From the NCBI GenBank assembly GCA_903879715.1, contig CAIRMR010000176.1, forward strand, positions 1 through 64,000: a DNA stretch of 64,000 bases, read 5' to 3'. A program made the position numbers and the translations under genes. How positions within the stretch are numbered: position 1 is the first letter of the stretch; every line of letters starts with the position of its first letter. Under the pieces are notes generated by a model. The model was given only the letters and a program-made list of their open reading frames with translations. It made no database searches and was not told the origin of the DNA. Positions 1,410-36,983 of this stretch are shown piece after piece. Source of the DNA: an uncultured Bacteroidales bacterium (GTDB taxonomy: Bacteria > Bacteroidota > Bacteroidia > Bacteroidales > UBA4417).

Positions 1410-1415
1410 AAATGC

Positions 1416-10654: not shown

Positions 10655-11233
10655 ATGTCCGCTTCACACGAAAGTCATCACCCTCTAACCCTTAGTGGTG
10701 AGCTACGGCTGGAAACCGGTGTTATCATAAATAAATGCTACCAGTGCGGCAAATGTTCAGCCGGTTGCCCTGTGGCTGAGGAAATGGATTATCCGCCCAG
10801 CCTGGTAATGCGGATGCTACAGACTGACGATCCGAAACAGTATGAAAAGTTGCTGCGATCCATGTCCATCTGGCTTTGTGTCAGCTGCGAAATGTGCCTT
10901 ACCCGTTGCCCGATGGAAATCGACATTCCGACAATCATGGACAACCTGAGGCAAAAATCTTTACGGGCTAAAAAGACAAATCCACAGGCAAAAAAGATCA
11001 TTTCATTTCACAAATCCTTCCTCGATTCGATCAATATTACAGGTCGTCTGTATGAAATGGGACTGATTGTGGATTATAAAATGCGTACAGGTGCCATGAT
11101 GCAGGATGTTTTAATAGCGCCTAAAATGTTTGTAAAAGGAAAATTAAACCCGGTTCCTGAATTCATTAAAGGACGAAAAAAAGTTGCTGCAATTTTTAAC
11201 CGGGTTCAAAAAGATAATAAGGAGGGAAAATGA
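10655..11233 (+). CDS. hdrC: heterodisulfide reductase subunit C-like 4Fe-4S protein
   Basis: CYQCGKCSAGCPVAEEMDYPPSLVMRMLQ and CVSCEMCLTRCPMEIDIP. Confidence 0.92.
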   Translation: MSASHESHHPLTLSGELRLETGVIINKCYQCGKCSAGCPVAEEMDYPPSLVMRMLQTDDPKQYEKLLRSMSIWLCVSCEMCLTRCPMEIDIPTIMDNLRQKSLRAKKTNPQAKKIISFHKSFLDSINITGRLYEMGLIVDYKMRTGAMMQDVLIAPKMFVKGKLNPVPEFIKGRKKVAAIFNRVQKDNKEGK

Positions 11234-12150
11234 TAAAAGTAGGATTCTATCCGGGTTGCTCCATGAAAGGTGGCGCACAGGAATACCAGGAATCAGTTAC
11301 CGCCCTGGCAAAAGTATTTGATATCGAACTGGTCGAAGTTCCCGACTGGAACTGTTGTGGGGCTACGGCTGCTCATAATATGAATAAGGAATTGTCGCTC
11401 AGTTTGCCGGCCCGCATTATGGCTCTGGCCGAAAAGGAAGGGATTACTGATATCGTAGTTCCCTGCGCTGCCTGTTACAACCGGCTTTCCCTTGTGAAGC
11501 ACGAACTGGCGGAAGATCCTTCCTTGAGTTCAAAAGTAGCTTCGATAATAGACCTGAAATACCAAGGCACAACGCAGATTTTGAATATTATTCAGTTTAT
11601 CGACAAATACATTACCGACAAGTTAGAGGAAAAAGTAGTCAAACCATTCGACTACAAATCTGCTTGTTACTATGGATGTTTGCTTGTAAGGCCTCATTCC
11701 ATCCTGAAATTCGACAGGGTTGAAGATCCGCAAAGCATGGATGTTCTGGTAAGAAAGGCTGGTGGAAATGCCATCGACTGGGCTTTTAAAACCGAATGCT
11801 GCGGAGCAGGATTGTCAGTATCACGTACGGATACAGTTGCCAGGTTATCAGGAAATATTTTGAAAGATGCCGTTGACCGCGAAGCTGAAGTTGTAGTTGT
11901 TGCCTGCCCGATGTGCCATTCCAATCTGGATATGCGCCGCCCGGAAATCAATAAATTTCTGGAGAAAAAAATTGACGTTCCTGTAATGTATATTTCACAG
12001 GTACTTGGGCTAGCCGTTGGTATCGACGCTAAAACACTCGGGTTAAATCGTCATATGACCGAAGTAAATCTGCCTGTGCGGCCGGCGAAAGAACCAGCAG
12101 TTGCTGCGGTTCCTGAAAAAGTTGTTATCACTCAAAAAACGGAGGCTTAA
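11230..12150 (+). CDS. hdrB: heterodisulfide reductase subunit B-like (CCG domains)
   Basis: FYPGCSMKGGAQEY, DWNCCGAT, CYYGCLLVRP, CCGAGLS; ATGA overlap with hdrC. Confidence 0.93.
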   Translation: MIKVGFYPGCSMKGGAQEYQESVTALAKVFDIELVEVPDWNCCGATAAHNMNKELSLSLPARIMALAEKEGITDIVVPCAACYNRLSLVKHELAEDPSLSSKVASIIDLKYQGTTQILNIIQFIDKYITDKLEEKVVKPFDYKSACYYGCLLVRPHSILKFDRVEDPQSMDVLVRKAGGNAIDWAFKTECCGAGLSVSRTDTVARLSGNILKDAVDREAEVVVVACPMCHSNLDMRRPEINKFLEKKIDVPVMYISQVLGLAVGIDAKTLGLNRHMTEVNLPVRPAKEPAVAAVPEKVVITQKTEA

Positions 12151-12152
12151 CC

Positions 12153-14153
12153 ATGTCGCGAATAGGAGTATTTGTTTGTCACTGTGGTGAAAATATTTCA
12201 GCCACAGTAAATTGCGAAAAAGTAGCCAAAATAACCGGTGAATTGAAAGGTGTTGAATTCAGTACCGATTATAAATATATGTGTTCCTATCCTGGCCAGA
12301 CTTTAATAAAGGAAGCCATAAAGGAACATAAACTGGATGGAGTTGTGGTTGCAGCCTGTTCACCTCGTATGCATGAGCCTACTTTCCGTAAGGCTTGCGC
12401 CGAAGCCGGGTTAAATCCATTTCTCTGTGAAATGTCGAATATCCGCGAGCATTGTTCATGGGTACATCCAAAAGATGATCTTACGACTGAAAAAGCCCAG
12501 GATTTGGTACGGGTAATGGTTGAAAAAGTAAAAAAGAACAAGGCTCTCAACTCTATTAAAGTGCCAGTTACCAAAACCGCTCTTGTAATCGGTGGTGGAA
12601 TTGCCGGAATCCAGGCTGCACTTGACATTGCTAATTGTGGTCATAAAGTAATAATGGTTGAACGGCAGCCATCTATTGGCGGCCATATGTCGCAATTATC
12701 CGAAACTTTCCCGACTCTCGATTGCTCACAATGTATTCTCACTCCACGAATGGTGGAAGTGGCTCAACATCCGAATATAACGCTTCATACTTATTCAGAA
12801 GTTGAAAGTGTTGATGGTTTTATCGGTAATTTTAAAGTTAAAATCCGAAAGAGATCAAAGAGTATTGATGAGCATCTTTGTACCGGCTGCGGGCTTTGTA
12901 CCACTAAATGTCCTCAGAAAAAAATCCCTAATGAATTTGAGCGTGGGCTTGGTTTCAGACCAGCTATTTACGTTCCTTTTCCACAGGCAGTCCCCAATAA
13001 ACCTGTAATCGACAGGGAACATTGCACCTATTATATTAAAGGGAAATGCAAAATTTGTGAAATAGTTTGTCCAACTAAAGCCATCCGTTTCGACCAGGAA
13101 GATGAAGTTATTGATGTTGCCGTTGGCGCAATCGTAATGGCAACAGGCTTTGATGTTCTGAAAACCGATTATTTCCCTGAATATGGATATGGAAAATACG
13201 CTGATGTAATTGACGGTCTCGCATTTGAGCGCCTGGCTTCAGCTTCAGGCCCGACACAAGGTGAAATCCGCAGACCATCCGACGGTAAGATTCCTAAAAA
13301 AATAGTTTTCGTAGCATGTGCCGGTTCACGCGACCCTGCCAAGGGAATTGAATATTGCTCCAAAATCTGCTGCATGTACACCGCCAAACATGCTATGCTT
13401 TATAAACATAAAGTTCACGATGGCATTCCATATGTTTTTTATATGGACATCCGCGCAGGCGGCAAGAATTATGAAGAATTCGTCCGCCGTACAATAGTTG
13501 AAGACGAAACCCAATATATCCGTGGCCGTGTTTCCACCATTTACGAAAAGAACGGAAAGCTTATCGTTAAAGGAGCTGATACCTTAATGGGTGCACAACC
13601 TGTAGAAATTGAGGCTGATATGGTTGTTCTGGCTACAGCAGGAGTCGCTAACCACGGCGCTGAGGAGCTGGCTCAAACGGTTCACATTTCGTATGACCCT
13701 TATAAGTTCTTTGCTGAAGCGCATCCAAAACTGAAACCTGTTGAAACGAATACAGCTGGTATTTTCCTTGCCGGTGCGTGCCAGGCTCCAAAGGATATTC
13801 CGGAATCGGTTGCTGCCGCTTCGGGTGCTGCCGTTAAAGTAGCCGCATTATTCAGCAACGATGAGTTAACACGTGATCCGTTGGTAGCAGTCGTAAACCG
13901 TTCAGCGCCTCCTGTATATTCTCAATGTGTGGGTTGTTTCCTTTGCCAGAGTGTTTGTCCTTACCAGGCTATCGAGCGCGAAGAAATCAAAAACAGGAAT
14001 GGTGAAGTGATAAAAACGCTTGCCAGGGTGAATGAAGGCCTTTGCCAGGGATGCGGAACCTGTGTTGCTCTATGCCGTACCAAGGCTATCGACATACATG
14101 GATACTCGAACCAACAGGTGTATACGGAGATTATGGCACTTTTGAATGATTAA
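12153..14153 (+). CDS. hdrA: heterodisulfide reductase subunit A-like FAD/4Fe-4S protein
   Basis: GVFVCHCGENIS, LVIGGGIAGIQAALDIANCGHKVIMVE, several CxxCxxCxxxC clusters. Confidence 0.95.
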   Translation: MSRIGVFVCHCGENISATVNCEKVAKITGELKGVEFSTDYKYMCSYPGQTLIKEAIKEHKLDGVVVAACSPRMHEPTFRKACAEAGLNPFLCEMSNIREHCSWVHPKDDLTTEKAQDLVRVMVEKVKKNKALNSIKVPVTKTALVIGGGIAGIQAALDIANCGHKVIMVERQPSIGGHMSQLSETFPTLDCSQCILTPRMVEVAQHPNITLHTYSEVESVDGFIGNFKVKIRKRSKSIDEHLCTGCGLCTTKCPQKKIPNEFERGLGFRPAIYVPFPQAVPNKPVIDREHCTYYIKGKCKICEIVCPTKAIRFDQEDEVIDVAVGAIVMATGFDVLKTDYFPEYGYGKYADVIDGLAFERLASASGPTQGEIRRPSDGKIPKKIVFVACAGSRDPAKGIEYCSKICCMYTAKHAMLYKHKVHDGIPYVFYMDIRAGGKNYEEFVRRTIVEDETQYIRGRVSTIYEKNGKLIVKGADTLMGAQPVEIEADMVVLATAGVANHGAEELAQTVHISYDPYKFFAEAHPKLKPVETNTAGIFLAGACQAPKDIPESVAAASGAAVKVAALFSNDELTRDPLVAVVNRSAPPVYSQCVGCFLCQSVCPYQAIEREEIKNRNGEVIKTLARVNEGLCQGCGTCVALCRTKAIDIHGYSNQQVYTEIMALLND

Positions 14154-14183
14154 ATAAGGAGTAAGGAGTTAAGAATAAGAATG

Positions 14184-14300
14184 ATTTACGATTTACGAAT
14201 TACGATTTACGAATTACGATTTACGAATTACGATTAACGAATTACGAATTACGAATTACGATTAACGAATTGTGTCACGCTGAGCAGAGTCGAAGCGAAC
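14184..14300. repeat. heptanucleotide array (12 consecutive units, ATTTACG/AATTACG/ATTAACG) plus diverged REP-like palindrome
   Basis: Twelve exact 7-bp units 14184-14267, then CACGCTGAGCAGAGTCGAAGCGAAC. Confidence 0.95.
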
Positions 14301-14348
14301 GATTAACATGAACTGATGCCTAAAATTAAACGAATAAACAGGAAATAA

Positions 14349-14807
14349 ATGCAGGAATTTGAACCAAAGATTGTGGCATTTGTATGCAACTGGTGTACCT
14401 ATGCCGGCGCCGACCTCACAGGCACAAGCCGCATAAAATATTCGGCCAATGTTAAGATAATCCGTTTCCCGTGTACCGGCCGTATTGACTTTATGATACT
14501 GATGAAAGCTTTTGAAAACGGGGCTGACGGCATTATCGTTTCCGGCTGCCATCCGAATGATTGCCATTACAGCACCGGCAACTTTCACGCTCGTCGCAGA
14601 TGGATTGTTTTCCGCAACCTGCTGAATTTTTCAGGGATCGATACCGAACGTATTCAGTTTAGCTGGGTTTCGGCAGCAGAAGGTTTTAAATGGGCTGATG
14701 TAGTGAATAACACAGTGAAAAAGATCAGGGAAATAGGTCCATACGAGAATTATAACAAGATTGCCGTTTCCACATTATTTAAAGAGGAGGGCGCAACCAA
14801 TGAGTGA
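14349..14807 (+). CDS. flxD: MvhD/FlxD-like iron-sulfur electron-transfer subunit
   Basis: EPKIVAFVCNWCTYAGADLTGTSRIKY; GADGIIVSGCHPNDCHY. Confidence 0.88.
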   Translation: MQEFEPKIVAFVCNWCTYAGADLTGTSRIKYSANVKIIRFPCTGRIDFMILMKAFENGADGIIVSGCHPNDCHYSTGNFHARRRWIVFRNLLNFSGIDTERIQFSWVSAAEGFKWADVVNNTVKKIREIGPYENYNKIAVSTLFKEEGATNE

Positions 14808-15603
14808 TTTGATAAAAAAAGTAACAGCTTTACTGAACGATAAAACGATCAATGCTTTTATCGGGTACGAAAAAGGTTCGGCCGACCGTATCAGGGCAAC
14901 TTTTATAAGGAATGAAGATCAGGCTCAAAAGCTTATATTGAATGCATCCTGCACACAAAATCTTGCCGGTTACCTGTTGAAACATGAGGTGAAGAAACTT
15001 GGTAAACTCGGAATTCTTGCTAATGTTGCCGCTTTGCGAAGCATCATGCAGCTGGCCTCTGAGTTTCAGATAAAAGATGGCGAAGTTTATGTTTTGTTTG
15101 CGAATGCAGATGGTTCATTAACTGAATTCACTGATTTCAAATCCATTGAAGCATTCCTCGAAACAACCGATACCGGTATAAAATCCGAAGAGCAGGAAAT
15201 GATCGCAAAACTGGAAGCGATGACAGTGAATGAGCGCTGGCTTTTCTGGAACAAGGAATTTGAGAAATGTATCAAGTGCTACGCCTGTCGTGCTGCCTGC
15301 CCGATGTGCTATTGCCATCGTTGCACTACAGATGTTAACCAGCCGCAATGGATTCCGGTAGCCAGTCATGAACTCGGAAACCTTGATTACCACCTGATGC
15401 GTGCGATGCACCTTGCCGGGCGTTGCGTTAACTGCGGCGAATGTGCCACCGCCTGCCCGATGGATATTCCGTTAAACCTGCTTACATACCAGCTGATCAG
15501 CCCGATCAAGGCTACGTTTGGTGCAACTGCCGGAATGAAAGCGGATGCCGTGTATGCACTTTCTACCTATAAACCCGATGATAAGGAGAACTTCATTATC
15601 TGA
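14800..15603 (+). CDS. flxC: 4Fe-4S dicluster subunit, FlxC-like
   Basis: CIKCYACRAACPMCYC and CVNCGECATACPMDIPLNL; start MSDLIKKV after AAAGAGGAGG; overlaps the end of flxD. Confidence 0.8.
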   Translation: MSDLIKKVTALLNDKTINAFIGYEKGSADRIRATFIRNEDQAQKLILNASCTQNLAGYLLKHEVKKLGKLGILANVAALRSIMQLASEFQIKDGEVYVLFANADGSLTEFTDFKSIEAFLETTDTGIKSEEQEMIAKLEAMTVNERWLFWNKEFEKCIKCYACRAACPMCYCHRCTTDVNQPQWIPVASHELGNLDYHLMRAMHLAGRCVNCGECATACPMDIPLNLLTYQLISPIKATFGATAGMKADAVYALSTYKPDDKENFII

Positions 15604-15606
15604 CCC

Positions 15607-16638
15607 ATGGAGAAACAACTAAAAATACTGAAATACAGCGACCTTTCGAAACTGATCGAAAAGTTCCGTTCGCAGGGATTTCCTGTGCTGGCACCTGTCC
15701 GCAAAGGAAAGGTCGTAGAGATTGAACAGGTACAATCGCTTGATGAAATCGCTCTTGATGTTTTGCTGTCAACGCAATCAGCAAAAAAGGCTGCTTTCCC
15801 GAAAGTTGAAAAAGTACTGGAGTATACCCTCGAAAAATCAGGAACTAAACAATTCCCGGTTGATCCGGCTGATTATAAGGAAACTATCCTTTTTGGCGTA
15901 AGACCATGTGATGCATCTGGTTTTAAATCACTGGACGCTATATTTGGCGAAGAACCAAAGGATCAGTTTTACCTGGAGAAAAAAGAGAAATCCACAATCA
16001 TTTCGTTTTCATGTCCAGTTTCTGATGAGTATTGCTTCTGCACATCGGTTGGCGGCGGACCTGGAAATACGGCAGGAAGCGATTTACAGTTTACCGGAAT
16101 CAGCAAAGATGAAATTCTTGTTGAAATCCTTACCGAAAAAGGGGAGAAGCTGGCAGCAACGTTTGCAGATTTGCTTACTGATGCAGCTAAAGATATTGAC
16201 AAGAGTAAATTCCTTGCCGATGTTAAAGTTGTATTTGATGTAGATGGCGTTGTTGAGAAAACGACTGCTTCTTTCAATAATTCAGCACTTTGGCTCGAAC
16301 AATCGTTGCGGTGTATCGGATGCGGGGCTTGCGCTTTTGTTTGCCCGACCTGTGCTTGCTTCGATTTCCAGGATGAGCAGAATACCAAAAAGGGAGTTCG
16401 CCTTCGTTTATGGGATTCATGTGGATTTTCGCTGTTTACCCTGCACACATCCGGTCACAATCCACGCGAAGTACAAAGCCAGCGGTGGCGCCAGCGTATT
16501 ATGCACAAGTTCGCCTATATGCCGGAGCAACTTCACGTTGTAGGCTGCGAAGGCTGCGGACGCTGCTCGCGGGCCTGCCCGGTGGATATGAACATTAAGG
16601 AACATTTGACGGCGATTGGGGAGATGGTAAAAGTTTAA
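15607..16638 (+). CDS. flxB: 4Fe-4S subunit, FlxB / AsrA-like
   Basis: FGVRPCDASGFKSLDAIF; CIGCGACAFVCPTCACFDF; GCGRCSRACPVDMNI. Confidence 0.82.
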   Translation: MEKQLKILKYSDLSKLIEKFRSQGFPVLAPVRKGKVVEIEQVQSLDEIALDVLLSTQSAKKAAFPKVEKVLEYTLEKSGTKQFPVDPADYKETILFGVRPCDASGFKSLDAIFGEEPKDQFYLEKKEKSTIISFSCPVSDEYCFCTSVGGGPGNTAGSDLQFTGISKDEILVEILTEKGEKLAATFADLLTDAAKDIDKSKFLADVKVVFDVDGVVEKTTASFNNSALWLEQSLRCIGCGACAFVCPTCACFDFQDEQNTKKGVRLRLWDSCGFSLFTLHTSGHNPREVQSQRWRQRIMHKFAYMPEQLHVVGCEGCGRCSRACPVDMNIKEHLTAIGEMVKV

Positions 16639-16797
16639 AATTGTTCAAAATTGTCAAGGTTGTTCAAAATTGTTCAAGGTTGTTCAAAATTGTTCAAAAA
16701 GATCAACCCGCCTTTTAACAATTGAACGCGAAGCATTTGAACCTTGAACGCGAAGCAATTGAACCCTTGAACGCGAAGCATTTGAACTTGACGAACT
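16639..16797. repeat. TTGTTCAAAA decamer arm plus inverted arm TTGAACGCGAAGCAT (three copies)
   Basis: Direct reading; GCGAAGC at 16728-16734, 16750-16756, 16773-16779. Confidence 0.9.
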
Positions 16798-16825
16798 AAA
16801 AATATAACAAAGTAGATTGACAATT

Positions 16826-17665
16826 ATGGAGCAACAGAATATTTACCAGCCTTACCTGATGGAGATCGAGAAGATCACTGAAGAGGCGCCAATGGTCAAA
16901 ACATTCAGGTTGAAATTTAAAAACGAAGAAGAAGGAAATAACTTTTCTTTTCATACCGGGCAGTTCGGCGAATATTCCGTTTTTGGCGAAGGAGAAGTAA
17001 CTTTTTGCGTTGCATCACCTCACACCCGGAAAGGATATATCGAGTGCACTTTCCGTGAAGCAGGAAGAGTAACTTCGGAACTTGCCAGCCTAAACGAAGG
17101 TGATACCATTGGTTTCCGCGGACCTTACGGCAATATTTTCCCGATTGATGACTGGAAAGGCAAAAGCCTGCTTTTCATAGCAGGTGGAATTGCCCTGCCT
17201 CCTATGCGCAGCGTAATCTGGTCGTGCCTCGATAAAAGAGATCAGTTCAAAGACATTACAATCCTTTACGGAGCTAAATCAGTAGCCGATCTAGTTTATA
17301 AAGATGAACTGGCTGAGTGGAAAGATCGTCCGGATGTAAAACTCGTTACCACGGTTGATCCTGGTGGGGAAACTCCCGACTGGAAAGGTGAAGTTGGCTT
17401 TGTTCCGACTATTCTGGATAGAATGACACCGATCAGTGAAAATACGATTGCCATTGTTTGCGGCCCACCGGTAATGATCAAGTTTACATTCCCTATACTT
17501 GAAAAATATGGTTTCGCTGATGATCAGGTTTATACAACCCTCGAAAACCGTATGAAATGCGGCCTTGGGAAATGCGGAAGATGCAATGTAGGCAAGGTTT
17601 TCGTTTGTAAGGATGGACCGGTTTTTACCAGGACGCAGCTTAAGGAGTTGCCTGACGAGTACTAA
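16826..17665 (+). CDS. flxA: FAD/NAD(P)-binding oxidoreductase, FlxA / AsrB-like
   Basis: HTGQFGEYSVFGEGE, LLFIAGGIALPPMRSVI, CGPPVMIKFT, C-terminal MKCGLGKCGRCNVG. Confidence 0.85.
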   Translation: MEQQNIYQPYLMEIEKITEEAPMVKTFRLKFKNEEEGNNFSFHTGQFGEYSVFGEGEVTFCVASPHTRKGYIECTFREAGRVTSELASLNEGDTIGFRGPYGNIFPIDDWKGKSLLFIAGGIALPPMRSVIWSCLDKRDQFKDITILYGAKSVADLVYKDELAEWKDRPDVKLVTTVDPGGETPDWKGEVGFVPTILDRMTPISENTIAIVCGPPVMIKFTFPILEKYGFADDQVYTTLENRMKCGLGKCGRCNVGKVFVCKDGPVFTRTQLKELPDEY

Positions 17666-20423: not shown

Positions 20424-21461
20424 CTAAACAATCTCCGAATACAACCTCATAAACTGCACCCTTTCAAACTCAGCCGGATTTACAATGCTTTGCTGGTTCA
20501 TCTTGCCCCTGAAATCATCAATGGATTTGTAGCCTTTTTCGTCCATCCATTTGCTTATATCTGCGATGATTTCCGAAATGACAGGATAGCCATGTTTGTA
20601 GATAGCCGATACTACTTCAATAGCAGTTGCACCAGCCAACAGTTGCTTAATAGCGGTTTCGCCTGTATGAATTCCGGTTGTAGCAACCAATGGGCATTCA
20701 ACACGGCCTGAAAGTAAGGCCATCCATCGCAACACATGTGAGTATTCTGTCGGATCGCTCAGCAGGTATTTGGCATGGGTTTCCATTTTATTGATATCAA
20801 TATCCGGGTGAAATGGCCTGTTAAAAAGTACCAGTCCGCTGATACCTGTCTTTGATAGCTCAATGGCTGTAGTAGCCAATCCCGAAAAATAGTAACCTAT
20901 TTTTAAGGAAACCGGAATCTTAACCTGTTTCAGAACAGCTTCAATGATATCGAAATAAACTTTTTCGTTCTCTTCTGACTTTTTCGTTGTATTCGAAGGA
21001 AGAACATATACATTGAGCTCCAGGGCATCTGCGCCGGCTTCTTCAATCTTGCGTGCGAAGTAATGCCAGTCGTAGGCTGAAGTGCAATTGATGCTGGCAA
21101 TAACCGGAATATCAACCGCTTTTTTCGCTTCCGTTACAAACGAAAGGAATTTCCTCAATGTGAGATCTTTGGCATGATCAGCCAGGTATGAATACGCTTC
21201 CTCATAATCATATTCCCTCTCATTCAGAACGGATTTATATCCCTTTTGAAATGAATTGCCATTATCCTTTTCTGTTTCGTTGAGATAACTATCCATTTCA
21301 TGCAGTATCTGCTCCTCGAAAATAGATTTTAAAACAACGGCTCCTGCTCCGTTTTCGGCAGCATGCACAACACCGGCAACGGTTCCGGTCATTCCGGAGC
21401 TTCCGACAATCACAGGATTTTTTAGTTTTAATCCAAGGTAATGGGTTGATAAATCAGCCAT
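20424..21461 (-). CDS. dihydroorotate dehydrogenase-like FMN protein
   Basis: TTHYLGLKLKNPVIVGSSGMT, IPVIASINCTSAYDW, ISGLVLFNRPF, VATTGIHTGETAIKQLLAGATAIEV. Confidence 0.85.
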   Translation of the reverse strand: MADLSTHYLGLKLKNPVIVGSSGMTGTVAGVVHAAENGAGAVVLKSIFEEQILHEMDSYLNETEKDNGNSFQKGYKSVLNEREYDYEEAYSYLADHAKDLTLRKFLSFVTEAKKAVDIPVIASINCTSAYDWHYFARKIEEAGADALELNVYVLPSNTTKKSEENEKVYFDIIEAVLKQVKIPVSLKIGYYFSGLATTAIELSKTGISGLVLFNRPFHPDIDINKMETHAKYLLSDPTEYSHVLRWMALLSGRVECPLVATTGIHTGETAIKQLLAGATAIEVVSAIYKHGYPVISEIIADISKWMDEKGYKSIDDFRGKMNQQSIVNPAEFERVQFMRLYSEIV

Positions 21462-24051: not shown

Positions 24052-25425
24052 CTAAATCGGCAAATGCCAAACAAAAATCCCCATCACGACCACAGCAATG
24101 CCGCAAACAATAATTAATCCTGCGTTAAGTTTTGTGATAAGAAGTGGTTCGAGATGATCTCTGTCGGTAAAAACTTCGCGTACTACATTGAAGTAATAGT
24201 AAATCCCGACAATCGCCATAAGTATTGCAAAAATGGATATTGCCAGATACCCCTGGCTGATTGATAAAACAAATACCTGGTATTTTGCAAGGAAACCAGC
24301 TGTTGGCGGGATACCAGCCATCGACATTAACAAGATGGTCATAAATACTGCAATCCAGGGTTTCTTTTTATAAAGTCCCTGGAAAGCTGCAATGTGATCA
24401 TGTCCATTGGATGCCCGTTTTACCAGGATAAATATTATAAATAACGGAACGGTTGCCACCGAATATATAAAGGTGTAATAAAGTATAACTGATGCTGACG
24501 ATGAATGCTGCGAAAGCATAGCCAGCATGATAAAACCGGAATGAGCAATAGATGAGTAGGCCAACAAACGTTTGAAATTTGATTGTTTTAAAGCTACCAG
24601 GTTGCCGATCAGTAAGGTAAGCCCCGTCATTACCCAAAGTGCTTTTTCGAGAGATTCCGGCAAAGGCAGCAATCCTATTCCCAGTAGGCGGTAAAATGCA
24701 GCAAATCCTGCTGTTTTAACAACCGTAGCCATAAATGCTGTTACCAGTGTGGGTGAGCCTTCGTACACATCAGGACTCCAGAAATGGAATGGTGCAACAG
24801 CAACTTTAAAAGCAACCCCGATGATAATAAACAGAAGCCCGATCAGCAACATGGGCGGAAGATTGCCATGGAACTGTGCAATATAAATTTTGATTTCAGG
24901 CAGGTAAAAGGTGGCGGAAGCGCCGTATACCAAAGCTATACCGAATAAAAAGAAGGCTGTGGCAAATGATCCTAGCATGAAATATTTAAAGGAAGCTTCG
25001 TTGGATTTGAATGAAAATTTCTTTCCTCCTGCAAGAATATATAAAGGGATAGATAGGATTTCTATTCCAAGAAAAAGCATAATAAGGTTGGAGAATGATG
25101 TCATCAGAAATGCGCCGACAAGTGCGAAAATCATAAGTGAGTATTGTTCTGCAACATGAAACTCCATCATTTTATAATAGTCGATCCCGAACAGAAAGAT
25201 AATAATGGTTATAACAATCATTGAGATATTGAACGCCACTGAAAAATTATCAAAAATTACCATGTTGTGGAAAAACGAAGAACTCAATCCCCAATCTTTA
25301 AAGGAGAGAAAGAGGGTTACAAGCAAACCTGCAATGGCTGTAGGCGCAAGTATAGTCTTGTTTTTGGTCAATCCAAAGTACAAGATTATTATTCCAAGTA
25401 TTGTTGTAAATATTATTGCGTTCAT
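24052..25425 (-). CDS. nuoN: NADH-quinone oxidoreductase subunit N
   Basis: Proton-antiporter-like membrane subunit; LIGNLVALKQSNFKRLLAYSSIAHSGF; operon position. Confidence 0.93.
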   Translation of the reverse strand: MNAIIFTTILGIIILYFGLTKNKTILAPTAIAGLLVTLFLSFKDWGLSSSFFHNMVIFDNFSVAFNISMIVITIIIFLFGIDYYKMMEFHVAEQYSLMIFALVGAFLMTSFSNLIMLFLGIEILSIPLYILAGGKKFSFKSNEASFKYFMLGSFATAFFLFGIALVYGASATFYLPEIKIYIAQFHGNLPPMLLIGLLFIIIGVAFKVAVAPFHFWSPDVYEGSPTLVTAFMATVVKTAGFAAFYRLLGIGLLPLPESLEKALWVMTGLTLLIGNLVALKQSNFKRLLAYSSIAHSGFIMLAMLSQHSSSASVILYYTFIYSVATVPLFIIFILVKRASNGHDHIAAFQGLYKKKPWIAVFMTILLMSMAGIPPTAGFLAKYQVFVLSISQGYLAISIFAILMAIVGIYYYFNVVREVFTDRDHLEPLLITKLNAGLIIVCGIAVVVMGIFVWHLPI

Positions 25426-25460
25426 CTGCTTTCGGAGATCAGGATGTTAGTATAATTTGT

Positions 25461-26936
25461 TTAGAGTGGTAATGCCGGTATAACTTCAGCCACAGGTACC
25501 AGAAGATTCTGCATGGTAGTAACTGAAGCTTCAACCAGGTTGAAAACGGGTTGAGGGTAAATACCAAGCACAAGTATAATCGTAATAAGCGGGATTAATA
25601 CGATGTAATCGATACGTTTAAGATCAGTAATATTTCCGGAACCCGGTCTTTTTTCGCCAAGCATTACTCTCTGGTAGGCATAAAGCATATAAATAGCTCC
25701 AAGTACCATGGTGATGCCACCAAAAACGGCAAACCAGATAGACTGCTGAAAAAGTCCTGTGATTATAAGAAATTCACCTACAAATCCTGCTGTCAATGGA
25801 AGTGCTATGGAGCCCAGAACAACAAGCAGGAAAAGGATTGCCATATTCGGAGCCAGAAGTTTTATTCCACCCAGCTTCGGTAATTCGAGCGTTCCAGCTT
25901 TTTCTTCAATAAGCATTACAATGTAGAAAAGTGCTACAATGGTAACTCCATGACTTAACACCTGGAAAAGAAGCCCCTGTACTGCATAGTAATTTAAAAC
26001 AAACATAGCTGCAACCATCAGCGAGACGTGTGCCATGGAGGAGAATGCAATAAGTGTTTTCAGATTGGTCTGCCGGAATGCAATTACTGAAGCATAGATA
26101 ACGCCAATCAAACTAAGTATGATAATCGTATTTTGCCAGTAGTGTACTCCCAAAGGAATAACCGGGAAAAGAAACCGCAGCGCTCCATAAATCCCCATTT
26201 TTGTCATCACTCCGGCTAAAATCATTACGCCTTGCGTCGGAGCCATGGTATACGTTGATGGCTGCCAGGTATGAAAGGGGAATACCGGCATTTTTATAGC
26301 AAAAGCTATAAAGAGAACCCAAAACAGCCAGATTTGTGTATTTGCCGGAATATTCAAATTACTGAACGCTGAAAAATCAGTGGTATGCACACCCGGAGTC
26401 AGAGAATACAGGTAAATAATCCCGAATAAAAGGAACAAACTACCTGTCAGTGTATAAATAAAGAATTTGAAAGTGACATTTCTACGACCTTCGCCACCCC
26501 AAAGGAGTAAAATAAAGTAGAGCGGAATAAGGGTTAGTTCCCAGAAAATGTAAAACAGGAACGCATTTTGTGCCAGGAAAACGCCGGTCAGCGCTGATTG
26601 TGTGAATAAGATCAGTGCATAAAGCAAACTAACATTTTGTTGTTCTCGTTTCATCCCGGCCATAATAATAAATGGGAATAGCAGGCTTGTAAGAATCAGC
26701 ATTATTAAACTTGTGCCATCGTATCCCAGGGCGAACTTTATTTCAAGAAAGTTTATCCAGATAACTGAATAACTGCTTAACTGGGCCGTGAAAACAAGGC
26801 TTAAAGTTGCAACCAGGCTAACAATTGCTGATGCCAGCGCCACCAGTTTTACTGCGGCAGCATTCCTGTTCAGCAACAACAAAAGGCCTGCAATAAAAGG
26901 AATCAGAAGAATGACCAGTACTATCATAGGGTTCAA
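25461..26936 (-). CDS. nuoM: NADH-quinone oxidoreductase subunit M
   Basis: FYIFWELTLIPLYFILLLWGGEGR; RQTNLKTLIAFSSMAHVSL. Confidence 0.95.
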   Translation of the reverse strand: MNPMIVLVILLIPFIAGLLLLLNRNAAAVKLVALASAIVSLVATLSLVFTAQLSSYSVIWINFLEIKFALGYDGTSLIMLILTSLLFPFIIMAGMKREQQNVSLLYALILFTQSALTGVFLAQNAFLFYIFWELTLIPLYFILLLWGGEGRRNVTFKFFIYTLTGSLFLLFGIIYLYSLTPGVHTTDFSAFSNLNIPANTQIWLFWVLFIAFAIKMPVFPFHTWQPSTYTMAPTQGVMILAGVMTKMGIYGALRFLFPVIPLGVHYWQNTIIILSLIGVIYASVIAFRQTNLKTLIAFSSMAHVSLMVAAMFVLNYYAVQGLLFQVLSHGVTIVALFYIVMLIEEKAGTLELPKLGGIKLLAPNMAILFLLVVLGSIALPLTAGFVGEFLIITGLFQQSIWFAVFGGITMVLGAIYMLYAYQRVMLGEKRPGSGNITDLKRIDYIVLIPLITIILVLGIYPQPVFNLVEASVTTMQNLLVPVAEVIPALPL

Positions 26937-28834
26937 ACTATCAGGATAAAAATGATAAATAAAAGAATTCCGGCTACCATAGCAAATAGGTAGAAACTCA
27001 TATTGCCTTGCTGGAGTTTACGTAATAAAGATCCAACTCTTGCAGTGGTAAAACCAATCTCATCCACAACCGGATCAAGCACCGTGTTTTCGACCTTGTT
27101 GTAAAAGAAATCAGACAGATAACCGAAAGGTTTCTCAAAAACTGCCGTATACATTTCGTCAATGTAGAACTTGTTGTAAATCAGTTTGCTGAAAAATGAC
27201 ATTGGTTCTCCATCCTTTGCTGGTATCATTGATTTACTCACAAATGTTCGGTAAGCAAAGAATATGACAAGTCCCAAAAGCAGTAAGGAACCCAGAATTA
27301 ATCCTATTTCGGTGGAATGGCTCAGTTCTTCTGATGCCTTTGAAACGACTGCACTATGAAGGTAATTGCTGAATTTTGAATCCCCGTTAAAAAGTGAAGG
27401 AATATTCAGAAATCCTCCAAATACAGAAAGTACAGCAAGTATTATCAGTGGAATTGTCATAACCTTCGGCGATTCATGCGGATGAGCACCTGCCAGACGT
27501 TGTTCGCCGAAAAATACCAGGTAAAGCAGGCGGAACATGTAAAAACAGGTAATCAATGCGCCACCAAGTGCCAGAATGTAAAGGATTACGCTGTGTTCAA
27601 AAGCTTTACTGAGAATCAGGTCTTTGCTGAAAAATCCTGAAAAAGGAGGAATTCCACTAATGGCCAGTGTGGCGGCAAGAAAAGTGAAATAGGTAAGAGG
27701 CATCTTTTTCCGCAATCCTCCCATTTTACGGATATCCTGTTCGCCGCCCATGGCATGAATTACACTACCTGCACCAAGGAATAACAGTGCTTTGAAAAAT
27801 GCGTGTGTGGTTACATGAAAAACGCCAGCTGAATATGCACCAAGTCCCAGAGCCAGGAACATATATCCTAACTGTGACACCGTGGAATAGGCAAGGACTT
27901 TCTTAATATCATTCTGCTTCAATCCAATTAAGGCAGCAATAATGGCTGTTGCCAGACCAATTACTATTATGATATTCAGTGTTAACGGAGCCAGGTTATA
28001 AAGAATACTTGAACGGGCAATCATGTAAATACCGGCTGTTACCATGGTAGCTGCATGTATAAGTGCCGAAACCGGTGTAGGTCCAGCCATGGCATCAGGC
28101 AACCATGTAAAGAGAGGAATCTGAGCACTTTTCCCAACAGCACCTATAAGCAGTAATATTGTAATTAGTGTAATAACCGGCGCCCCAACGGGAAAAGCAG
28201 CAGCCTGTGAAAATATTTCAGAAAAAGTTACTGTTTTAAATGTGATGAATAGAAGGATGATTCCCAGGATGAACCCAAGGTCACCAATTCGGTTCATTAC
28301 AAATGCTTTGCGGGCGGCATAGTTGTAAGCAGGATTTTTAAACCAGAACCCAATCAGCAAGTAGGAGCAGAGCCCGACACCTTCCCAACCTATAAAAAGT
28401 ACCAGGTAATTAGCACCCATTACCAGCAGCAACATGCTGAATGTAAACAGGTTCATCTGAGCAAAGAAGGAATTCACGCGCTCATCATCATGCATATAAC
28501 CAATGGAATAAATGTGAATCAAAGCTCCTACGCCTGTAACAATCAGCATCATAGTCAGCGATAAATGATCAATCAGGAAGGCAAAAGGAATATTCATTCC
28601 ACCTATGGAAATCCAGTTAAAAAGAGTTATAGTTGCTTCATTTTGTCCGGACGAGCGCAGTATGAAAAACAAAACAAGGGATACAAGAAAAGAAAGCAGA
28701 ACCATTGCGCTGGCAATAATTCCGGCCTGCTTGTGTTTTAAACTTTTATTAGCCAGTCCTGTTACCAGGAACCCTAGTAACGGGAATGCCGGAACAAGCC
28801 ATGCAAGATCTATATAGGGAATAGGATTTACCAT
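26933..28834 (-). CDS. nuoL: NADH-quinone oxidoreductase subunit L
   Basis: FIGWEGVGLCSYLLIGFWF; WLPDAMAGPTPVSALIHAATMVTAGIYM; 4-nt overlap with nuoM. Confidence 0.96.
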   Translation of the reverse strand: MVNPIPYIDLAWLVPAFPLLGFLVTGLANKSLKHKQAGIIASAMVLLSFLVSLVLFFILRSSGQNEATITLFNWISIGGMNIPFAFLIDHLSLTMMLIVTGVGALIHIYSIGYMHDDERVNSFFAQMNLFTFSMLLLVMGANYLVLFIGWEGVGLCSYLLIGFWFKNPAYNYAARKAFVMNRIGDLGFILGIILLFITFKTVTFSEIFSQAAAFPVGAPVITLITILLLIGAVGKSAQIPLFTWLPDAMAGPTPVSALIHAATMVTAGIYMIARSSILYNLAPLTLNIIIVIGLATAIIAALIGLKQNDIKKVLAYSTVSQLGYMFLALGLGAYSAGVFHVTTHAFFKALLFLGAGSVIHAMGGEQDIRKMGGLRKKMPLTYFTFLAATLAISGIPPFSGFFSKDLILSKAFEHSVILYILALGGALITCFYMFRLLYLVFFGEQRLAGAHPHESPKVMTIPLIILAVLSVFGGFLNIPSLFNGDSKFSNYLHSAVVSKASEELSHSTEIGLILGSLLLLGLVIFFAYRTFVSKSMIPAKDGEPMSFFSKLIYNKFYIDEMYTAVFEKPFGYLSDFFYNKVENTVLDPVVDEIGFTTARVGSLLRKLQQGNMSFYLFAMVAGILLFIIFILIV

Positions 28835-29157
28835 TTTAAGCGGTTCAGAAGGTTAATATCTACCGATTCAACATTGCGTTTCATCATTACAACAATCGAG
28901 AGTCCGACAGCAACTTCAGCGGCTGCCACAATCATGATAAAAAAGACGAAAACCTGCCCCGATGGATCGGAATGATAAGCTGAAAAAGCCGCAAGCAACA
29001 GGTTTGCGGAATTGAACATCAACTCAAGGCACATCAGGATTGCAATAATATTTCGCCTGAATAATACACCCATCATACCAATGCTGAAAAGCGTAACGCT
29101 CAGTATTATGTAATGCTGGAGTGGAATGAGTTGAATGGCGGAAGTGATTTCGTTCAT
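28828..29157 (-). CDS. nuoK: NADH-quinone oxidoreductase subunit K
   Basis: GMMGVLFRRNIIAILMCLELMFNSANLLLAAF. Confidence 0.95.
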   Translation of the reverse strand: MNEITSAIQLIPLQHYIILSVTLFSIGMMGVLFRRNIIAILMCLELMFNSANLLLAAFSAYHSDPSGQVFVFFIMIVAAAEVAVGLSIVVMMKRNVESVDINLLNRLKW

Positions 29158-29260
29158 TTTTTTTCTTAGGTTTTTGAGGTTAGTGATTGGGATTTAGGGG
29201 ATGACCATTTAACCATTTTCCTTTAAACATTTATTCTTTAATTTTTGGTTCTGATTTTCG

Positions 29261-29287
29261 AGAGGAGATGCGAGGCATCGCGTCTCT
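29261..29287. repeat. palindromic REP-like element in the nuoJ-nuoK gap
   Basis: AGAGGAGATGCGAGGCATCGCGTCTCT; outer stem AGAGG/GTCTCT-type plus inner stem GATGC/GCATC. Confidence 0.75.
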
Positions 29288-29292
29288 ACGTT

Positions 29293-29799
29293 TTAATCTT
29301 CACCGGCTGCATGATCCCGCTTACCAAACATCACCGCCCCAACCATTGCCGAAATAAATAAAACAGATGATATTTCGAATGGCAGCAGGAATTCGTGGAA
29401 TAAGGTTTTGCCAACGTTGGCAACCAATCCGATTTCGCTGGTAAATGCATATCGTGGATTTATTACAAAGGTTTGCCTGGTTGCAGCAAGCAACACCAGA
29501 AAAAATATACCACCGGTGACTACAGCTAAAACTCTTGCAGCTGCAGATTTCTGGGGAATAATCGCTTTATTAAGATTCAGGAGCATAACCACAAAAAGGA
29601 AGAGCACCATGATGGCACCGGTGTATACAATAATATGAACCACAGCCAGAAATTGGGCATTTAGTAAAATGTAATGCCCGGCCATAGCTATAAAGCAAAT
29701 AATCAGGTAGATAACATTATTGATCGGGCTTTTCGAAAACACAACCAACAAGGCGCTGATCACCATGATTGCTGAAAGAAAGTAAAATAAAAAGACCAT
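29293..29799 (-). CDS. nuoJ: NADH-quinone oxidoreductase subunit J
   Basis: Start MVFLFYFLSAIM; VVHIIVYTGAIMVLFLFVVMLLNLN. Confidence 0.92.
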   Translation of the reverse strand: MVFLFYFLSAIMVISALLVVFSKSPINNVIYLIICFIAMAGHYILLNAQFLAVVHIIVYTGAIMVLFLFVVMLLNLNKAIIPQKSAAARVLAVVTGGIFFLVLLAATRQTFVINPRYAFTSEIGLVANVGKTLFHEFLLPFEISSVLFISAMVGAVMFGKRDHAAGED

Positions 29800-29854
29800 T
29801 ATAACTGGTTTAATTTCTGATTTGTGGGATAATGCGTTTAATTGACAGCAGTGC

Positions 29855-30430
29855 TTATTTATTATGAGCAAAACGTTTGTTCTCCTTGAATTTTAGCACA
29901 CTCTCGGTTTGCCGTTTCGAAATATCAATTCGTTTGGTTGGATCAAGTGGTTCGACCAGTCTATCTTTCCCGTAAACAAACGGTTCGCGTTTATATTCCG
30001 ATGCTACAATCCTGTCAGTGAGGAATATGGCTTCTTTAGGGCAGGCTTCTTCGCAATCGCCGCAGAAAATACAGCGCAGCATATTAATTTCATAGGTCGC
30101 AGCATACTTTTCTTCACGATAAAGGTTTTCTTCGCCGGGTTTCCGTTCGGCTGAAATCATGGTGATTGCTTCGGCAGGACAGGCAACAGCGCATAATCCG
30201 CAGGCTGTGCAGCGTTCACGTCCGAGATCATCACGCTTCAATACATGTTGTCCACGGTAAATTTCACTGAACGGACGTGTCTGTTCAGGGTAGCTTATGG
30301 TTGATTTCTTTTTAAAGAAGTGTTTAAGCGTAATTGCCATTCCTTTCACAATGGCAGGCAGATAGATTTTTTCAAGAAAAGTCATCTTCTTATCCGAAAC
30401 CACTTTCGATCTGTTGGTTAATTGCTGCAT
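29855..30430 (-). CDS. nuoI: NADH-quinone oxidoreductase subunit I
   Basis: CTACGLCAVACPAEAI and CIFCGDCEEACPKEAI. Confidence 0.94.
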   Translation of the reverse strand: MQQLTNRSKVVSDKKMTFLEKIYLPAIVKGMAITLKHFFKKKSTISYPEQTRPFSEIYRGQHVLKRDDLGRERCTACGLCAVACPAEAITMISAERKPGEENLYREEKYAATYEINMLRCIFCGDCEEACPKEAIFLTDRIVASEYKREPFVYGKDRLVEPLDPTKRIDISKRQTESVLKFKENKRFAHNK

Positions 30431-30440
30431 GGTTTCCGGA

Positions 30441-31472
30441 TTAAGTAAGTTCGAAGAAATAATAATAAACCCCCGTTGCAACAATGTTAAACATTGCTAA
30501 CGGTATCAAGCCTTTCCATCCCAGGTTCATCAGCTGGTCGTAGCGGAAACGTGGCAATGTCCAGCGCACCCACATAAACAGGAAGATGAAGAAGAAAATT
30601 TTCATAAAGAAAAATGCCGTTCCCAATAGTGTAAGTGCGTTTGGCGAAAGCCCAAGCTGATCAATAAACGGCATATTGTAGCCGCCGAAATACACCGTTG
30701 CAATTACCGCCGATGAGATAAACATATTAATATATTCGGCAAAAAGGTAAAAGCCAAGTTTCATGGAACTGTATTCGGTATGGTAACCGCCTACGAGTTC
30801 GGTTTCGCATTCAGGCAAATCGAATGGAGCACGGTTGGTTTCGGCAAAAGCGCAGGTTAAAAATAAAAGGAATCCCAAAGGTTGATAAAAAACATTCCAG
30901 TGCATTCCATGCTGTTGCTGTACAATTTCGTGAAGACTCAATGAGCCAGTCGTAACTACCAATGCCACAATTGCCATGCCCATCGCCAGTTCATAGCTTA
31001 TCATCTGCGAGGCAGCCCTGATGGAGCCGTACAAAGCATATTTGTTGTTCGATGCCCAGCCTCCGATCATAATTCCGTAAACGCCGATGGAAACCATGGC
31101 AAAAACATATAGAATTCCAATATTTAAATCAGCAATTTGCATTGAAAATTCGCGTCCGCCTATCGTTAGTGTTCCGCCCCAGGGAATTACAACCCCGGTT
31201 AGTAAAGCAGTGGTCATAGCGATAGCTGGGCCGAGAATAAAGAGTACCCTGTTTGCAGAAAGGGGAATAATTTCTTCTTTCATAAACATTTTGACGCCAT
31301 CGGCCAGTGGTTGAAGCAGGCCGAAAGGTCCGGCCCGGTTAGGCCCGCGGCGGTCCTGCATAAAAGCTGCTACTTTTCGTTCGCCATACGTTGAGTACAT
31401 GGCTACCACGAGGGTAACGAGCAGAATTATAAACAGGAATATGGTTTTATATATGTACAGTGTCCAATCCAT
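30441..31472 (-). CDS. nuoH: NADH-quinone oxidoreductase subunit H
   Basis: AFMQDRRGPNRAGPFGLLQPLADGVKMFMKE; AETNRAPFDLPECETELVGGYHTEYSS. Confidence 0.96.
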   Translation of the reverse strand: MDWTLYIYKTIFLFIILLVTLVVAMYSTYGERKVAAFMQDRRGPNRAGPFGLLQPLADGVKMFMKEEIIPLSANRVLFILGPAIAMTTALLTGVVIPWGGTLTIGGREFSMQIADLNIGILYVFAMVSIGVYGIMIGGWASNNKYALYGSIRAASQMISYELAMGMAIVALVVTTGSLSLHEIVQQQHGMHWNVFYQPLGFLLFLTCAFAETNRAPFDLPECETELVGGYHTEYSSMKLGFYLFAEYINMFISSAVIATVYFGGYNMPFIDQLGLSPNALTLLGTAFFFMKIFFFIFLFMWVRWTLPRFRYDQLMNLGWKGLIPLAMFNIVATGVYYYFFELT

Positions 31473-31580
31473 CTTAGCGTATTGCGTTGCAGAATGAGAA
31501 ATTTAGTTTTATGAACTTGCCAAAAAATGTTTTACTCCTTTTACTCTTTTTAATCATATTTATCAGATTGTAAATATAAC

Positions 31581-31824
31581 GTCCCTAACGGGACTTCCTT
31601 TGATTTATATTTCATTTTCTACCAATATTTTGTCCCTACTTGACAATCCCAAGAGGAAGAATGTTGGTAAAAAATTCTACCCCTTTTGTCCCTACTGGAC
31701 AATTCCAAAGGGAAGAATGTTGGTAAAAATCTCTTCCCCATTTTTACGCCTATTTTACAGTCCCGGAGGGACTGAATATTGGTAGAAATAAGTAACCACC
31801 GATTTGCTTAAGTCCCGTAGGGAC
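31581..31824. repeat. cluster of five GTCCC-n-GGGAC palindromes with conserved ATATTGGTA(G)AAA flanks
   Basis: 31581 GTCCCTAACGGGAC; 31632 GTCCCTACTTGAC; 31688 GTCCCTACTGGAC; 31759 AGTCCCGGAGGGACT; 31812 GTCCCGTAGGGAC. Confidence 0.9.
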
Positions 31825-31862
31825 GGTATGTATCAATAGTTACAGTATTACCTGGAATTCAA

Positions 31863-32816
31863 TTATTCGGTCTCTTCACCATCCTCTGGTATATCAAGCT
31901 TTTCGTAATGATTTTGTGAAATTACGGAATGTCTTTCAATTTTTCTTGGACCTTCAACAATCCAATCAACATTTTCTTTGTGTTCAAAGCGGCAATCGTT
32001 GCAGATAAACTCTTCCAGTTCGCCGTATTTATCTTTCCTTCCGGTAACGCGGAGAATTTCTTCGCCTTTCATCCACAATACTGTTTTTCCGCAGCATTTG
32101 GAACATTCGCGATGTGCATCGAATGGCCTTGTAAACCAGACACGGCTTTTAAACCGGAAAGTTTTGTCAGTCAAAGCACCCACAGGGCAAACATCAATCA
32201 TATTTCCGGAAAAATCATTATCAACCGCCTTTTGAATTAATGTGCTGATTTCGGAATGATCACCACGGCCCAAAACTCCATGTACCCGGCCATCCGTTAT
32301 CTGATCAGCAACTTTTACACAGCGGTAACACAAAATACAGCGGTTCATGTGAAGCTTGATCAAATCGCCAATATCAATCGGATCAAAGGTTCTGCGGTCT
32401 TCTTCGGTGCGGGTTACTTCCAGTCCGTGTTCGTATGACAGGTCCTGTAAATGACATTCACCTGCCTGGTCGCAAACGGGACAATCGAGCGGATGGTTGA
32501 TCAGCAGGAATTCGGTAATCGCCCGGCGGTTATCCATTACTTCGGGTGAAGTCCTGTTTTGAACCACCATTCCATCCTGAACAGGTGTGCGGCACGAGGC
32601 TACCAGTTTAGGCATCGGACGGTTGTCCTTGAATGAGCCTTGTGAAACTTTTACAAGGCAGGTACGGCAATAACCGCCACTGCCTTCCAGTTTGGAATAA
32701 TAGCACATGGCAGGCGGAACCACGCTACCGCCAATTTTTCGGGCAGCATTCATGATGGTTGTTCCGGCCTCAACCTCAACCTCAATATTATCGATGGTTA
32801 CCTTTAAAAGGGGCAT
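31863..32816 (-). CDS. nuoG: NADH-quinone oxidoreductase subunit G, short form (N-terminal Fe-S region only)
   Basis: 2Fe-2S CYYSKLEGSGGYCRTCLVKV, CDQAGECHLQDLSYEHG, CILCYRCVKVADQ; only 317 aa. Confidence 0.9.
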   Translation of the reverse strand: MPLLKVTIDNIEVEVEAGTTIMNAARKIGGSVVPPAMCYYSKLEGSGGYCRTCLVKVSQGSFKDNRPMPKLVASCRTPVQDGMVVQNRTSPEVMDNRRAITEFLLINHPLDCPVCDQAGECHLQDLSYEHGLEVTRTEEDRRTFDPIDIGDLIKLHMNRCILCYRCVKVADQITDGRVHGVLGRGDHSEISTLIQKAVDNDFSGNMIDVCPVGALTDKTFRFKSRVWFTRPFDAHRECSKCCGKTVLWMKGEEILRVTGRKDKYGELEEFICNDCRFEHKENVDWIVEGPRKIERHSVISQNHYEKLDIPEDGEETE

Positions 32817-34105: not shown

Positions 34106-34108
34106 GGT

Positions 34109-34639
34109 TTACAGGTAGGGATTTGTATGCGAAGTTTTATTTTCGGCCTGCCATTTTTCAAGCAAATCGTCAGCTTTCTGCGTGGTAAGATTTTCGTGGT
34201 ATTCAGTTCCAACCTGGATTACAGGAGCATTCCCACAGGCGGCAAGGCATTCAACAGTTTTGATTGTAAATTTACCATCAGCAGTAGTTTCGCCGGCTTT
34301 AATTCCAAGACGATTTTCAAAATGAGCCAGAATTTCTTCGGAACCTTTTAACATACATGGTCCGGTTTGGCAGACTTCAATAACACAATTACCAACCGGT
34401 TGCAGGTTGAACATGCTGTAAAACGAAGCAACTTCAAAAACTTCAATAGGTTGAATATCAAGTAAGGATGCCACGTATTCCATAGTTTCGGAACTCAACC
34501 ATCCGTGGTTTTCGGCCTGGGCAATATGCAATACAGGAAGTAAGGCTGATTTCTGCCTGCCTTCCGGGTAGCGTTTTATGATCTTGTTTACGAGATCAAG
34601 CGTTTCGCGGTTAAATTCTATGTTGAGCTTTTCTGGCAT
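34109..34639 (-). CDS. nuoE: NADH-quinone oxidoreductase subunit E
   Basis: CQTGPCMLKG ... CLAACGNAPVIQV (2Fe-2S thioredoxin-like). Confidence 0.95.
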   Translation of the reverse strand: MPEKLNIEFNRETLDLVNKIIKRYPEGRQKSALLPVLHIAQAENHGWLSSETMEYVASLLDIQPIEVFEVASFYSMFNLQPVGNCVIEVCQTGPCMLKGSEEILAHFENRLGIKAGETTADGKFTIKTVECLAACGNAPVIQVGTEYHENLTTQKADDLLEKWQAENKTSHTNPYL

Positions 34640-34671
34640 TTAAAAGTTTCTGGTTTCTGGTTAAAGTAGCT

Positions 34672-34828
34672 GGAAGCCGGAAGACCGAAGTCGGAAGACC
34701 TGTTTACTATTTTTAATTTGAAGCATTTATCAATTTATATATCTTTATTTCTCACAATTCTATACGAAATTTAAGCACTAGTGTCTCCCGACTTCCGACT
34801 TCCGACCTCTGACTTCTGACTTCCGTCT
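34672..34828. repeat. inverted heptad arms (GGAAGAC ... TCCGACT) in the nuoD-nuoE gap
   Basis: Left arm 34672-34699 GGAAGCC GGAAGAC CGAAGTC GGAAGAC; right arm 34787-34828 CCCGACT TCCGACT TCCGACC TCTGACT TCTGACT TCCGTCT. Confidence 0.92.
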
Positions 34829-34830
34829 TT

Positions 34831-36066: not shown

Positions 36067-36096
36067 GTATTGTTTTGTATTCTTTTTTATTCGGTT

Positions 36097-36336: not shown

Positions 36337-36387
36337 ACTTATCCCCACTACCTTTTTCTATTAACTATTAACTTTTCCCCCCTTCCC

Positions 36388-36951: not shown

Positions 36952-36983
36952 CGATTTTCAAAGATACCGAATTAGCCTGAAAA

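Follow-up and report, generated by a model that had tools for sequence, protein, structure and literature searches.

A Flx-Hdr gene cluster of Bacteroidales that appears to be independent of DsrC, to stand in for Rnf and, in relatives, to be linked genetically with headless complex I

The hdrCBA-flxDCBA cluster and its occurrence

The 64,000-nucleotide stretch of an uncultured Bacteroidales genome analysed here (the window) contains seven intact open reading frames (ORFs), all on the forward strand between positions 10655 and 17665, that form the cluster hdrCBA-flxDCBA (Table 1). The initial annotation had described seven co-directional genes in this order, a description confirmed by the intact ORFs, by family matches of their products and by the recurrence of the order in tens of genomes. 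Two start codons were refined, that of flxC to ATG 14800 (not TTG 14761) and that of flxA to ATG 16826 (not TTG 16817), and both lengths then agree with those of orthologues; the flxC ATG overlaps the flxD stop. Short degenerate AT-rich repeats occupy the hdrA-flxD gap (14170-14290) and the flxB-flxA gap (16640-16790). In several other members of the window's genus, the hdrA-flxD gap is only about 11-13 bp.

Table 1. Coordinates of the Flx-Hdr genes and of neighbouring features within the window
Feature	Position	Strand	Description
hdrC	10655..11233	+	192 aa; ferredoxin-type subunit with two [4Fe-4S] clusters; all 8 cluster Cys kept in 84 sequences
hdrB	11230..12150	+	306 aa; two CCG domains for noncubane [4Fe-4S] clusters; predicted acceptor-reducing subunit
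hdrA	12153..14153	+	666 aa; FAD and multiple [4Fe-4S] clusters; putative bifurcation subunit
hdrA-flxD intergenic stretch	14154..14348	.	short degenerate repeats (ttacgaattacga...)
flxD	14349..14807	+	152 aa; MvhD-like [2Fe-2S] subunit; 5 invariant Cys
flxC	14800..15603	+	267 aa; shortened FdhB/FrhB-like bridging subunit with 4Fe-4S motifs
flxB	15607..16638	+	343 aa; sulfhydrogenase-beta/AsrA-like multi-[4Fe-4S] subunit; 15 invariant Cys
flxA	16826..17665	+	279 aa; FAD/NAD(P)H-binding subunit, C-terminal [2Fe-2S]
Dihydroorotate-dehydrogenase-like flavoprotein (PRK07565 type)	20424..21461	-	recurs beside hdr-flx in at least 5 families
14-subunit complex I (nuoA-N)	24052..37933	-	distinct in lineage from the hdr-flx-linked headless nuo of relatives

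Family matches of the products lie far above chance (HdrA2, 1e-233; FlpD/MvhD, 1e-49; Fer4_22, 7e-32; CCG, 4e-23; NAD_binding_1, 1e-17), and in comparisons of 84-120 sequences per subunit the cysteines that ligate the clusters are conserved. The match of HdrA to its solved methanogen counterpart (5odc_A; E 6e-207) covers residues 3-665, and the protein has, at the sequence level, the FAD domain and the ferredoxin-type clusters for ferredoxin reduction. FlxD matches the MvhD chain 7bkb_F (E 1e-44), while FlxB and FlxA have their counterparts in Pyrococcus sulfhydrogenase I, FlxB in the beta subunit (9nez_B, E 2e-37) and FlxA in the gamma subunit (9nez_C, E 1e-59, in a full-length alignment). 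The initial annotation had named two points at which the assignment might fail, namely the NAD(P)H/FAD-binding residues of FlxA and the capacity of the HdrB CCG motifs to bind noncubane clusters. In the alignment with 9nez_C the former are present: FlxA shares with the gamma subunit the glycines of the NAD domain and the four cysteines of the [2Fe-2S] centre, and among 115 sequences its Cys 245/250/253/261 are kept in 99% or more. The predicted cluster-binding motifs of HdrB are complete as well, every CCG cysteine being matched in alignments with solved HdrB (5odc_B and 9sfi_C) and Cys 10, 42, 43, 79, 82 / 150, 190, 191, 226, 229 being conserved in 95 sequences.

FlxC has no close named family in family searches. 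Profile searches matched it to 9t1s_M (E 1e-28) and to 7bkb_E, the FdhB of an Fdh-Hdr complex (4e-28), and the best fold matches of its AlphaFold model (mean pLDDT 82) were again 7bkb_E and its counterpart 8rvu_E. These matches suggest that FlxC is placed between FlxB and FlxD. By every sequence test the cluster is that of a complete Flx-Hdr complex. Its parts are of an ordinary, known enzyme kind, and its context is the more interesting side.

As described in the papers that cite Ramos et al. 2015 and Ferreira et al. 2023 (PMC7382037, PMC6037941, PMC10504309), FlxABCD-HdrABC of Desulfovibrio vulgaris has the same seven subunit types and the same presumed reaction, involving NADH, ferredoxin and an acceptor at HdrB. 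The window's cluster differs in its gene order, in the lack of DsrC and sulfite reductase from its own genome and in the linkage to complex I seen in relatives. HdrA, HdrB, HdrC and the MvhD-like subunit are also homologous, with all cluster cysteines, to those of methanogen HdrABC-MvhD with FdhAB or MvhAG and of the related 8rvu complex (5odc, 7bkb, 8rvu), in which FdhB corresponds to FlxC. Whereas the methanogen complexes take electrons from H2 or formate, the predicted input here is NADH via FlxA and FlxB. No [NiFe] MvhA or FdhA, as in methanogen Mvh/Fdh-HdrABC, was recognised in or near the cluster, and no metF or metV, as in the MetVF-HdrABC-MvhD type, at 7-24 kb of the window. The CoM-S-S-CoB acceptor of methanogens would not be expected in this bacterium. 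The resemblance of FlxB and FlxA to Pyrococcus furiosus sulfhydrogenase I (beta and gamma subunits; 9nez, 9nf0) extends to AsrA/AsrB, but the cluster has no hydrogenase or sulfite reductase subunit.

Among 393 genomes of the order, 43 encode FlxC (hereafter Flx+), as do 12 of the 16 genomes of the window's genus; the seven-gene order is nearly always kept, and all FlxC-bearing genomes tested also have a full HdrA. Named carriers are Marinifilum, Dysgonomonas, Bacteroides cellulosilyticus, B. oleiciplenus, Alistipes, Azobacteroides, Chlorobaculum, Ignavibacteria, Phycisphaerae and Aminicenantes. The hdrCBA-flxDCBA order likewise occurs in Chlorobi, Ignavibacteria, Planctomycetes and Aminicenantes. 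Phyla are intermixed on the HdrA tree, which suggests lateral transfer. Homologue matches and the same tree support the assignment of the window to Bacteroidota, as its description as Bacteroidetes-like had it.

Candidate acceptors at HdrB

In D. vulgaris, DsrC interacts with FlxABCD-HdrABC according to the papers citing Ferreira 2023 (PMC10504309, PMC10553843), and a function of this type would couple NADH oxidation to the reduction of ferredoxin and of a DsrC disulfide or trisulfide. Neither DsrC (as far as PF04358 can detect it; an E. coli control was positive) nor siroheme sulfite reductase (PF01077) was found in the window's own genome, which is 99.6% complete. The window itself has no recognisable DsrC, sulfite reductase or hydrogenase, in agreement with the initial annotation; a search of the whole genome located one full-length [NiFe] hydrogenase large subunit (contig C186) and several [FeFe] hydrogenases, all on other contigs. 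Within the genus, DsrC is present in one of 16 genomes (G002) and absent from the window's genome and 14 of the 15 others. Across the order it occurs in 16 of 43 Flx+ genomes and 105 of 350 genomes lacking Flx (p=0.38). Because DsrC is absent from the window's own genome and is not enriched with Flx, a role for it as the general partner can be dismissed for the order, and DsrC coupling, which the initial annotation had mentioned as a proposal for such complexes, is not supported as a general explanation. DsrC was thus rejected as the partner in this genome and as a general one; despite its presence in more than a third of the Flx+ relatives, the Desulfovibrio-type reading is highly improbable for the cluster. 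The DsrC partnership is a Desulfovibrio function that does not define the family, and the membership of the cluster in the Flx-Hdr family stands.

Two further Hdr-type loci occur in the window's own genome. The first (L007, C56:20000-39900, at 9200-15556) encodes two DsrE-like proteins, TusA, an MvhD-like protein, QmoA-like and QmoB-like proteins, a small winged-helix-like ORF and a QmoC-like protein; siroheme sulfite reductase, as noted, is missing from this genome. The other (L009, C60:1-15000, at 60-6144) encodes HdrC-like, HdrB-like and HdrA-like proteins, a small HdrC-like protein and a membrane protein; its HdrA-like protein has 339 aa and no Fe-S domains, and its membrane protein has 614 aa with HdrD/DsrK-like CCG domains. 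Judged by its predicted products, L009 resembles sHdr or an Hdr-like quinone enzyme. The presence of these loci would fit a reduction by the HdrB arm of some other sulfur carrier or thiol, such as a TusA- or DsrE-bound persulfide, in a sulfur metabolism shared with the Qmo-like and second Hdr-like loci. However, both loci lie on contigs other than that of hdr-flx, and many Flx+ genomes of the order have no second HdrA-like match at the threshold used, so that we consider this unlikely.

A third possibility is that electrons of the HdrB arm go to fumarate reduction or to quinone instead of a disulfide, NADH oxidation then yielding reduced ferredoxin together with succinate or menaquinol. The 'succinate operon' of Pseudoclostridium thermosuccinogenes provides a precedent, being a case of Flx-Hdr in a fermenter, proposed to work without DsrC and encoded together with fumarase and fumarate reductase (PMC7282089). 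Rnf is also present in that organism, and neither of these linkages is seen in the window. The window's HdrB scores 172 bits with the SdhE model and 158 bits with that of CoB-CoM HdrB, a small gap between two scores that are both under the cut-off, and no fumarate reductase gene was seen beside hdr-flx in the loci examined. This acceptor is rated as a minor possibility.

Flx-Hdr and Rnf in the order

The initial annotation had remarked that the organism seems heavily invested in NADH/ferredoxin/quinone balancing, which proved its most productive part: Flx-Hdr and Rnf are strongly anticorrelated, and related genomes have hdr-flx linked with headless complex I operons. RnfC is encoded in 322 of the 393 genomes of the order. 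Nine genomes have both Flx and Rnf, 34 Flx only, 313 Rnf only and 37 neither (Fisher 3.6e-21, a value that overstates the evidence because the genomes sampled are not independent of one another and ecology is a possible confounder). Twelve families hold both Flx+Rnf- and Flx-Rnf+ genomes. By hand count, the same contrast is found inside six genera (g1, g23, g63, g65, g123, g136) of the 12 that have both Flx+ and Flx- members; Flx+ members retain Rnf in the other six, and the reverse occurs in none. In the window's genus, Rnf is absent from all eight Flx+ genomes tested and present in all three Flx- genomes tested.

This anticorrelation, seen in the order, in families and in genera, is most simply explained if Flx-Hdr is able to take over the NADH/ferredoxin exchange of Rnf. 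The two systems are unrelated, Rnf being membrane-bound and ion-pumping, and are largely exclusive of each other in the order. In Bacteroidota fermenters such as Prevotella, the role proposed for Rnf is ferredoxin/NAD balancing in fermentation, as for Flx-Hdr here, and for propionate fermenters Rnf has been put forward as the ferredoxin:NAD enzyme that was missing, in a paper that discusses alternatives without Flx-Hdr (PMC10542786). Several points count against a replacement. The evidence is a correlation, to which a common ecology or ancestry might contribute, and nine Flx+ genomes retain Rnf. Unlike Rnf, Flx-Hdr is not a direct energy-conserving system. Bifurcating [FeFe] hydrogenases are another possible means of balancing NADH with ferredoxin in the window's own genome. 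No report of the Flx/Rnf anticorrelation or of an hdr-nuo-flx operon was found in the openly readable literature; subscription papers, including the original Flx paper, lie outside that search and novelty is unproven.

A locus in G003 (L206, C2:40000-52000) has its rnf operon adjoining a Kup transporter gene whose product is 76-78% identical to the Kup encoded near flx in the window. An exchange of flx for rnf at a common site around kup was considered and set aside as probable coincidence, kup being beside rnf in G003 but not in G005 or G007.

Complex I, the proposed electron path and other neighbours

In four relatives (G143, G084, G240, G260), nuoABCDHIJKLMN without nuoEFG follows hdrCBA-flxDCBA at gaps of 20-208 bp, with a dihydroorotate-dehydrogenase-like gene between flxA and nuo in G143. 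In G109 and G210, which belong to two genera, nuo sits between hdrCBA and flxDCBA, across a contig break in G210. The idea that FlxDCBA acts alone with nuo in these two genomes, where hdrCBA had seemed to be missing, was rejected once hdrCBA proved to lie beyond nuo. The two gene sets, nuo and hdr, are divergent in four fen MAGs, and several of the contigs with a linkage end inside nuo. Altogether, seven hdr-flx/nuo neighbourhoods were seen in the survey of 43 genomes, window included, against well below one expected by chance (a rough hand estimate); in most Flx+ genomes nuo is not adjacent to hdr-flx. The nuo-linked loci fall in several places on the HdrA tree, with at least five changes forced by well-supported branches; thus, the linkage has been gained more than once or lost often.

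Complex I does lie in the window, as initially stated, but the window is the weaker case for the linkage, its adjacent nuo being of the 14-subunit type and of a different lineage. Descent of this complex I from the hdr-flx-linked headless nuo was rejected, since its NuoD is merely 34-36% identical to that of the linked headless complexes compared with 69% for the separate headless NuoD of the same genome. The own genome's headless nuo is on contig C95, and a third NuoD-like large subunit is encoded on C214. In G002 and G011 of the window's genus, flx is located elsewhere. NuoG of the window's complex I has just 317 aa and comprises the N-terminal Fe-S part only.

NADH is not a substrate of the headless NUO of Bacteroides fragilis, for which no donor is known (PMC7002350); the presence of headless complex I has also been called intriguing (PMC10542786). 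One way to connect these observations with the gene order, in particular with nuo lying between hdrCBA and flxDCBA or shortly after flxA, would be a physical docking of Flx-Hdr on headless complex I as an electron-input module that replaces NuoEFG. The separation of nuo from hdr-flx in most Flx+ genomes argues against it, as do the headless nuo of genomes without Flx (G003, G005), the failure to identify a docking subunit and, in the window, a nuo near flx that has its own NuoEFG; such docking is quite unlikely.

We regard it as reasonably likely, instead, that Flx-Hdr is a soluble complex, not generally based on DsrC in the order, that exchanges electrons between NADH and ferredoxin in the place of Rnf and reaches the membrane via headless complex I. 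By analogy with the methanogen complexes and with the bifurcation proposal for Desulfovibrio Flx-Hdr, as cited in PMC6037941, electrons would pass from NADH to FlxA (FAD, [2Fe-2S]) and through FlxB, FlxC and FlxD ([2Fe-2S]) to the FAD of HdrA, where they would be split. One would travel over the ferredoxin-like clusters of HdrA to ferredoxin and the other would reach, by way of HdrC, the noncubane clusters in HdrB and the acceptor there. The reaction would be reversible, and its direction may be towards NADH in fermenters with an excess of reduced ferredoxin. Flx-Hdr would thereby carry out in the cytoplasm the NADH/ferredoxin exchange performed by Rnf in most relatives, and the 11-subunit headless complex I, oxidising ferredoxin, would provide the contact with the membrane. 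A bolder version, put forward tentatively and more doubtful than not, is that Bacteroidota Flx-Hdr is the missing link to headless complex I, an NADH/ferredoxin exchanger with a non-DsrC acceptor at HdrB that has evolved repeatedly as a substitute for Rnf and is possibly assembled with NUO. In Flx+ lineages it would then be the so far unknown donor of Bacteroides-type headless NUO.

Two questions about energy metabolism in Bacteroidota become testable. One is what donates electrons to headless complex I with its 11 subunits (PMC7002350). For the other, succinate and propionate fermentation needs a ferredoxin:NAD oxidoreductase, and Flx-Hdr is a candidate not among the Rnf alternatives of PMC10542786. 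If the favoured reading is true, Flx-Hdr fills the slot of Rnf in about one-tenth of the order, which also has cultured carriers among Bacteroides, Dysgonomonas and Alistipes. Flx-Hdr would then no longer be a marker of sulfite or sulfate metabolism, and the annotation and flux models of Flx+ Bacteroidota would need revising.

The dihydroorotate-dehydrogenase-like gene, considered as a possible fixed partner, varies in position among hdr-flx loci, being upstream, downstream or between flx and nuo, and is absent from most of them. FlxA resembles PyrK, the partner of dihydroorotate-dehydrogenase-type enzymes. Immediately 3' of flxA (17850-18311) lies a probable YefM/YoeB-type toxin-antitoxin pair, the toxin matching the YoeB Pfam model (E 2e-25) and the antitoxin being assigned by position and length only. 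EtfBA and ETF-QO, which the initial annotation had also placed in the window, are indeed encoded there; EtfB and EtfA are apparently fused in one ORF of 656 aa (57754-59724) that adjoins the ETF-QO gene (60078-61736).
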